Origin: a virus
IMG/VR virus record: IMGVR_UViG_3300020157_000001
Coordinates: 27,206-91,205 of that record
Reading direction: 5' to 3' (one strand)
Length of the DNA: 64,000 nt
Each line of letters opens with the position of its first letter. Position 1 is the first letter of the stretch. Both the position numbers and the translations under genes were made by a program. Shown piece by piece: positions 13,646-47,849 of this stretch. Under the pieces are notes generated by a model, which was not told the DNA's origin, searched no databases, and was given only the letters and a program-made list of their open reading frames with translations.

Positions 13646-13745
13646 TTGAGGGGCGGGGGGAAAGGAGGGGAATCCTACTCAGTCACGTGCCGATGCTGGT
13701 ACGGATACCCTCTTCACCCTTGCGGAAGAAGCCCCCGCCCCTCAA
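13646..13745 (-). ncRNA. 100-nt three-way-junction RNA structure between two early genes
   Basis: A 14-bp perfect closing stem joins 13732-13745 to 13646-13659. Inside it, in minus-strand order, is one hairpin with arms CTTCTTCC/GGGTGAAG closed by a GCAA (GNRA) tetraloop. It is followed by a long imperfect arm of about 15 pairs (GAGGG, ATCC, TAC, CAG pairing with CTG, GTA, GGAT, CCCTC) with a 13-nt loop. The short alternative GGTA-TCCG-TACC, a UNCG loop, competes with that arm. It fills almost the whole gap between the Acb2-domain gene and the next gene's ribosome site. I recognise no known riboswitch, ribozyme or tRNA. A leader, translation control or processing element is likely. Confidence 0.7.
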
Positions 13746-13748
13746 GAC

Positions 13749-14771
13749 TTATCCGAGGATGATACCCTTTACTGACCGAGACACAACATCCTCAAGCGCT
13801 TTTAGTGCGAGTGAACGGTGACGGCCTGCGGGAACATTGGAAATGATGTGCTCACCCAACTGGAAGGCGGCGCTGGTGAGGTCGTTGATTGTCTCTGTCT
13901 CTCTACGGCTTGGCTCGCGAGCGTGATCGAAGAGGCTGGCACGAAGTTCCTCATAGCCAACGACTACTGGAGTAGTGGGAGCTGGCAAGGTCAGGTCGCT
14001 ATCACCAAGGGTGACGGGCATGGGCTTACCAATGTGCTGTGAGGGAAGAGGACCTGCCGTAGGCTTGTTCGCTGGATAAGGCTTAGCTGCCTTGGGAGTA
14101 ACGTGTACGGGGAGATCTTCCTTTGGGGGAAGAGCCTGCGCTGGCAAGGTAGTACCAAGGATGACCTTGATGTAGTTGGCCTTGCCTGACACCCCATCGG
14201 GGAGGTTGCCCGTCTCCATAGCGAGTCGCTTGAGCGATGCGACTGGCATGATGTTCAGTTCGTCCTCTGTGAACGCAACGGGGGCATCATCGGTCGGGTC
14301 ATCTTCTACGTACGATGTCGCAGCAGGTGTGACCTCTTCCTTTTCGGGAACAAGGGACAGAGAGATGGGGGCGAGTCCGTTGGACAACTCCAGTACAAGG
14401 GCGCTCTCTGGCACTGTGTCGAACACGAAGTTGACAAGCTCTTCTGCCTCGTTGTCATCCCAGAGGATGAGCACCTTACCCTTGTTCGCCATAGCGCCAA
14501 GGATCTGCTTCTCCACACCGTTCACCTCAAGGGTGCTGCCGGATTCTGCGGATGTGAATGCCTTGGGGGGCTTGTTGTCAGGGTTGTGGTACATGAGGAA
14601 CTGCACGTCGTTGTCAAGAATGTAGTCGTAGGCAGCAGCCAGACCATCGGTTGGCTTGCCGTACCACGGTAGTGCAACTACATCGTCCTCTTCAAGAAGA
14701 TCACGGAGACCTTCTTGGATTACTGTCTTGGGGGCATTACCTGTCCCCAGCAAAGCGTGGATACGTGACAT
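13749..14771 (-). CDS. Three-domain early protein with C-terminal Acb2-like (anti-CBASS/cyclic-nucleotide sponge) domain
   Basis: 340 residues. Residues 1-140 look Rossmann-like, with strands KVLILWDD and SALVLELSNG. Residues 168-206 form a SAP/HeH-like helix-extension-helix (ELNIMPVASLKRLA...GKANYIKVIL). Residues 207-280 are a Pro/Ala/Lys linker. Residues 288-338 resemble the Acb2 helical domain: INDLTSAAFQLGEHI, then VPAGRHRSLALKALED with the P-xx-R-xxx-LA-xxLE pattern, then a final helix. Acb2 proteins bind cyclic nucleotides and block CBASS and related immunity; here the domain is fused to a larger protein. It is the first gene of the leftward early operon, with a promoter-like site upstream, as expected for an anti-defence gene. 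The N-terminal role is unknown. Confidence 0.75.
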   Translation of the reverse strand: MSRIHALLGTGNAPKTVIQEGLRDLLEEDDVVALPWYGKPTDGLAAAYDYILDNDVQFLMYHNPDNKPPKAFTSAESGSTLEVNGVEKQILGAMANKGKVLILWDDNEAEELVNFVFDTVPESALVLELSNGLAPISLSLVPEKEEVTPAATSYVEDDPTDDAPVAFTEDELNIMPVASLKRLAMETGNLPDGVSGKANYIKVILGTTLPAQALPPKEDLPVHVTPKAAKPYPANKPTAGPLPSQHIGKPMPVTLGDSDLTLPAPTTPVVVGYEELRASLFDHAREPSRRETETINDLTSAAFQLGEHIISNVPAGRHRSLALKALEDVVSRSVKGIILG

Positions 14772-14803: not shown

Positions 14804-14832
14804 ACTGTACACCCCCACCAACGTCAATGCAA
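14804..14832 (-). promoter_or_regulatory. Candidate sigma70-like promoter of the replication operon
   Basis: On the minus strand TTGCAT (14827-14832) and TACAGT (14804-14809) are separated by 17 bases and lie about 33-61 bases before the ATG at 14771. Each hexamer matches consensus at four of six positions. The GTGTACA-(A/G)-T around the -10 is also found in the strong plus-strand endolysin promoter at 62558, which supports it. There is no other good promoter in this gap. Confidence 0.5.
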
Positions 14833-47414: not shown

Positions 47415-47849
47415 TTACTTAGTTGATGCTCGGAGCTGCCAGCCCCATTTGCTATGCATATCAATACGTTCTGCTAAGAAGTTAGCGATGCCCTGCTCGT
47501 CCTCATCCATTGCTGCTTTGAACGTCTTATTCAAACTAGCAATGATGGAGACGTTTGACTTAAGCAGAGCTTTAGCCATAGCGCTAGGGGACTGTTGGGC
47601 TGCACCAAAGTCGAAGGTACGAAGGCTCATAAACTGCTTCAGAGCAAAGGGGGCGTACTGGTCAAGTTTGCGAATGTTCTCAGCAATGGGGTCGATGGAG
47701 GAATACACATCCTCATAGATCGACTCAAAGAGAGAGTGATACTGAGAGAAGTCCTGACCCTCTACGTTCCAGTGGTAACCATGCGCCTGAAAATACATGG
47801 TTACCGCATCTCCCAAAAGGGATGAAAGGGCTTCAGTTAGCTTGCTCAT
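47415..47849 (-). CDS. dps-like: Dps/ferritin-like protein
   Basis: 144 residues. AVTMYFQAHGYHWNVEGQDF then SQYHSLFESIYEDVYSSIDPIAENI matches the Dps signature (H-xx-H-W-N-V-x-G-xx-F and the D-xx-A-E of the ferroxidase site, here D-P-I-A-E). The family stores iron and protects DNA from peroxide as a dodecamer, though phage versions are often virion-associated or truncated. The length is slightly under the usual 160-170. It sits beside the metallothionein-like gene, giving a possible metal/oxidative-stress cassette. Confidence 0.9.
   Translation of the reverse strand: MSKLTEALSSLLGDAVTMYFQAHGYHWNVEGQDFSQYHSLFESIYEDVYSSIDPIAENIRKLDQYAPFALKQFMSLRTFDFGAAQQSPSAMAKALLKSNVSIIASLNKTFKAAMDEDEQGIANFLAERIDMHSKWGWQLRASTK

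Follow-up and report, generated by a model that had tools for sequence, protein, structure and literature searches.

An Acb2-family module at the C-terminus of a phage protein with predicted SLOG-like and Rho_N domains

Proteins of the Acb2 family sequester bacterial alarm molecules. The family, typified by Acb2 (anti-CBASS 2; Vs.4 of phage T4 and gp24 of Pseudomonas phage PaMx33), forms a hexamer with pockets for cyclic di- and trinucleotides and inhibits CBASS in cells. A second relevant group is the LOG/SLOG family, which takes in the sensor domain of ThsA and viral SLOG proteins, and in which the PGGxGTxxE motif is the catalytic motif of the LOG clade. Sponges have so far been studied mostly as small proteins. 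The hairpins of Acb2 and of Tad1 (Thoeris anti-defence 1) assemble hexamers, and Tad1 is built from a four-stranded beta-sheet N-terminal part followed by two long C-terminal helices (PMC12043709). In T4 Acb2, Y8 and F82 were reported to be important for ligand binding (PMC12657218). For phage SLOG domains, a survey proposed that they sense or degrade ADP-ribose-type immune signals; some of them are fused to nucleic-acid-binding domains, and regulation by the SLOG sensor was proposed for such fusions (PMC9503650).

The window analysed here is a stretch of 64,000 nucleotides within a virus record of 91,205 bases, from a phage that encodes a contractile-tail sheath, a family A DNA polymerase, DnaB, a primase and a GH25 lysozyme. 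The gene under study occupies positions 13749-14771 on the minus strand and consists, in the list of open reading frames, of 340 codons plus a stop codon. A second virus contig, from what we call the sister phage, carries the gene at full length with 95% identity (L001/L025; L025:5287-6309), and purifying selection on the gene was observed between the two phages, with a Ka/Ks of 0.057 over its whole length. The first-pass annotation had described an Acb2 unit fused to a larger protein, and this arrangement held up; the 340-codon frame is unbroken and is found in the second phage as well.

The C-terminal unit covers residues 273-340 (positions 13752-13955, minus strand), and its membership of the Acb2/Tad1 hairpin family can be regarded as established. 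It contains the sequence P314-A-G-R317-H-R-S-L-A-L-K-A-L-E327-D. PF24729, the Pfam model of the Acb2/Tad1 hairpin, matched residues 285-337 with an E-value of 1.5e-4 and 22.3 bits, which is under the 27-bit gathering cut-off, and PHROG 1454 was matched at E 9e-6. An independent Acb2-family HMM was made from 15 members, with the T4-type Vs.4 included and the window protein left out. In a search of ~130 family sequences it gave E 1.3e-13 for the window protein, and outside the two near-identical phages nothing in these sequences scored better than E 1.3. The results of hhalign also placed the unit with the Acb2 family (98.1%, 7.6e-14), and the family profile with the window protein included matched the solved Acb2 homologue 9ptq (E 2.3e-6). 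When the C-terminus was used in tblastn, stand-alone hairpin proteins of Microbacterium phages were retrieved (44% identity, E 3e-7); those tested exceed the Pfam cut-off, and one match is already annotated as 'cyclic oligonucleotide sequestering protein'.

Structure prediction with AlphaFold2 from two sequences gave a mean pLDDT of 37, and the structural results reported here rest on a run with 42 sequences. This run predicted a short helix at residues 274-280 with low confidence, followed by two helices at 289-312 and 317-339, with pLDDT of ~70-86. Foldseek with the C-terminal unit found many Acb2/Tad1 hairpin proteins among its matches, the best at 7.9e-3 with prob 1.00, and the Ka/Ks of the unit was 0.085. 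The profile and structure matches agree with the first-pass annotation in making an Acb2-family unit the last domain.

Like Acb2, the window protein shows a short first helix and a two-helix hairpin, with the profiles matching residues 273-340; however, the Acb2 members used as yardstick are stand-alone proteins of 65-96 residues, whereas the unit is here the tail of 340 residues. With Tad1 it shares the PF24729 hairpin placed after an N-terminal domain, which is a beta-sheet in Tad1 and is replaced here by a Rossmann-like domain and Rho_N. A further case is SUFG_00048 of Sulfitobacter phage phiCB2047-B (L005:2138-2704), a protein of 188 residues in which a C-terminal Acb2/Tad1 hairpin also lies behind an unrelated domain, a RyR domain in place of the SLOG-like and Rho_N domains. 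The fusion, presented at first as a departure from the stand-alone form, is therefore unusual but not unique, given the RyR-hairpin protein and the beta domain with two helices in Tad1 (PMC12043709). No report of a SLOG-like/Acb2 fusion was found in the literature searched (full text, incomplete coverage). At the level of single residues, the turn P-x-G-R-x-R-S-L-A and E327-D328 are close to the sponge family. By alignment the position of T4 F82 is I338 in the window protein, and F281 lies within ~1 residue of the position of Y8, where the alignment is ambiguous. The stacking aromatics of T4 Acb2 thus appear not to be clearly kept.

Residues 1-140 (positions 14352-14771, minus strand) were predicted to form a Rossmann-like domain with pLDDT mostly 90+. 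The first reading had called the N-terminus Rossmann-like, and Foldseek of these residues against the PDB narrowed this to LOG/SLOG, since the top six matches were all LOG/lysine-decarboxylase-like chains (LOG-family matches with E 2.6e-3 to 1e-2, prob 0.99-1.00 and TMt 0.43-0.50). The alignment of 114 rows showed conservation of G9-x-G11, Y48, D53, W104-D105 and N131-G-L-x-P135, and the Ka/Ks of the domain was 0.02. The predicted fold and the G-x-G after the first strand are shared with LOG/SLOG proteins, but LOG enzymes carry the PGG motif, which was present in 0 of the 114 aligned rows. Because the LOG motif PGGxGT is missing, the domain is described as SLOG-like by fold and is not filed as a LOG enzyme. 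By sequence, the N-terminal domain matched no Pfam or NCBIfam model, and a sequence search of the PDB with the single window protein returned nothing. With moderate confidence, residues 1-140 can be considered SLOG-like in fold.

The middle of the protein, residues 165-210 (positions 14142-14279, minus strand), was predicted with pLDDT of ~90 as a Rho_N/SAP-like (HeH) domain. Of 42 orthologues, 7 matched PF07498, with 1e-4 as the best value, while the window protein itself did not reach E 1 against this model; the family profile matched the N-terminus of Rho (PDB 3l0o) at E 0.027. These matches are consistent with the SAP/HeH-like middle suggested at first. Between it and the Acb2 unit lies a proline-rich linker at residues 211-272 (positions 13956-14141, minus strand), predicted to be disordered (pLDDT 30-46).

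Relatives were collected with the neighbouring DnaB as query, which gave 80 related phage loci. An open reading frame matching the window protein at E <1e-5 was present in 59 of these, and 50 of the matches were non-identical; all of them except the sister end at 207-295 residues and have no Acb2 tail. When the N-terminal domain served as query instead, 80 loci were obtained, in partial overlap with the DnaB-derived set, and the alignment of the conserved part kept 100 non-identical rows after trimming. The non-Acb2 part is thus a conserved phage family of which ~100 distinct members were found, and which has no Pfam name. When phage records and IMG/VR were searched with the N-terminal domain of a single protein, only the 95% sister came up. 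Among the family members found, a recognisable Acb2 tail occurs only in the window phage and its near-identical sister, and the usual ending in the family is a short 'strand-DG-strand-helix' tail of the type VVVVFxDGTxxxF...helix. What this phage group conserves as a gene is the non-Acb2 part, so the exchangeable component is the Acb2 unit. In most orthologues a strand-strand-helix module of the 'VVVVVFKDQTTKTFKST...' type stands in place of Acb2, for example in L085:5030-5710 and L104:3992-4798.

More distant relatives were found in Streptomyces phages, which HMMER and hhalign from few sequences had missed and which the 42-sequence profile recovered (hhalign 86.8%, 4.3e-6). BRock gp120 and GiJojo gp96 share the genome position of the window gene and a remotely homologous N-terminal domain; unlike the window protein, they have an alanine/lysine-rich middle and no Acb2 tail. 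A P-loop reading of GSGKTT in the Streptomyces proteins was set aside, as BRock does not retain the lysine. BRock and a related IMG/VR phage with the distant core gene (the record behind L018) carry separate stand-alone Acb2-family genes, and both parts therefore also exist separately. Matches to PF24729 in two relatives (17 bits) were rejected as chance, the frame in one being a portal protein. These stand-alone genes of BRock and the related phage (L105:620-832 and L106:1492-1704) encode 70 residues each and lie near terminase or portal genes, in BRock away from the distant core gene; the BRock product is annotated as a hypothetical protein.

A tree built from 69 family members places the window protein as sister to a clade with mostly short helical tails, and support for the joint clade is 100/99. 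The tails of the sister clade were not matched by Pfam or by the Acb2 HMM. Aligned to Acb2 by hhalign, they gave E 9e-4 with a probability of 24% and a score above all 200 column shuffles, and they align in register with the second Acb2 helix. This is suggestive only, but the helical tails may be eroded Acb2 hairpins. Either the hairpin was gained once before the joint clade and was then eroded, or helical tails were gained twice. Along the gene, Ks between the window phage and the sister phage was 0.95, 0.48, 0.04 and 0.15; the first of these values belongs to the N-terminal domain, the third to the linker and the last to the Acb2 unit. This drop suggests recombination near the Rho_N/linker boundary, by which the 3' part of the gene may recently have been exchanged.

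Set beside the observed domain make-up, the conserved front part, the lineage-restricted recognisable Acb2 tail and the purifying selection, the best explanation, to which we give a probability of roughly 55%, is that a SLOG-like/Rho_N protein of the phage acquired a tail predicted to function as a cyclic-oligonucleotide sponge. The flexible linker would join the SLOG-like/Rho_N part to the terminal Acb2-family module, which would still oligomerise and would sequester a host-made cyclic oligonucleotide, a CBASS or related signal. For the SLOG-like domain, non-catalytic binding of a second ligand derived from a nucleotide is likely, and Rho_N is likely to keep the assembly close to nucleic acid. 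One protein would thereby bring together two classes of nucleotide-signal-binding modules. Against the sponge function, the little or no Acb2 signal in the sister-clade tails could mean that this function is not needed. The Pfam score under the cut-off, the T4 ligand aromatics, which seem not to be clearly kept, and a SLOG assignment made by predicted fold also count against the explanation.

It is possible, although distinctly less probable, that the Acb2 hairpin was kept only for oligomerisation, so that it multimerises the SLOG-like/Rho_N protein and binds no cyclic nucleotide. Known Acb2/Tad1 hairpins form hexamers (PMC12043709), other small modules occupy the C-terminal slot across the family, which makes a structural role possible, and the short tails of other members might likewise multimerise; the doubtful conservation of the T4 aromatics would fit as well. 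However, the turn and E327-D328 have stayed close to the sponge family, and the Ka/Ks of 0.085 shows that the unit itself is constrained.

A more speculative extension of the sponge reading, which we hold to be somewhat less probable still, is that the protein captures two signals. The SLOG-like domain would take up an ADP-ribose-type messenger non-catalytically, the Acb2 module a cyclic oligonucleotide and Rho_N would act as the tether, with the C-terminal module swapped between lineages and tracking host defences. A single polypeptide may then sense, or neutralise, two or more immune signals. The unnamed family is in this respect a candidate counter-defence or signal-sensing platform, and it raises the question of whether its SLOG-like domain binds immune messengers.

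The order of genes bears on another alternative, which we consider unlikely, namely that the protein is a sensor and not a sponge. A cyclic nucleotide at the tail, or an ADP-ribose-type ligand at the SLOG-like domain, would alter the action of Rho_N on nucleic acid and so regulate phage transcription or replication. The 340-codon gene follows the tail genes and precedes a DnaC-like loader and DnaB; the family gene sits where the tail genes meet the replication genes, and its placement is similar in relatives. This neighbourhood, the conservation of Rho_N across the family alongside the N-terminal domain, and the sensor regulation proposed for fusions of SLOG to nucleic-acid-binding domains (PMC9503650) are in favour of a sensor, but Rho_N could merely localise the protein, and neither a target site nor a regulated promoter is known. 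That the resemblance arose by chance, or that an annotation artefact such as a frameshift joined two genes, is hardly credible despite the Pfam score under the gathering cut-off, in view of the one open frame that both phage contigs share at a Ka/Ks of 0.057, the E-value of 1.3e-13 from the independent profile and the prediction of the whole three-helix unit.

The proposal that this is the first gene behind an early promoter found no support: the gene comes after tail genes and a consensus scan of the region found no sigma-70-like site just upstream; the tail-gene neighbourhood is no demonstration of early expression. A possible promoter that the consensus scan did not pick up, TTGCAT-N17-TACAGT, is located ~32 bases before the start codon (positions 14804-14832, minus strand). 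The pair TTGC[AG]T-N17-TACAGT is common to the window phage and the sister phage, with hexamers nearly unchanged and a spacer that differs. On the other side of the gene, a GC-rich stem of 14 pairs on the minus strand (positions 13646-13745) separates it from the next gene; this stretch has a folding energy of -55 kcal/mol (z -4.2), and in the same stem of the sister phage one G-C pair has apparently become A-U. The stem may be a terminator, an attenuator or another RNA element. Elsewhere in the window, at positions 47415-47849, the phage encodes a ferritin-like (Dps-type) protein.
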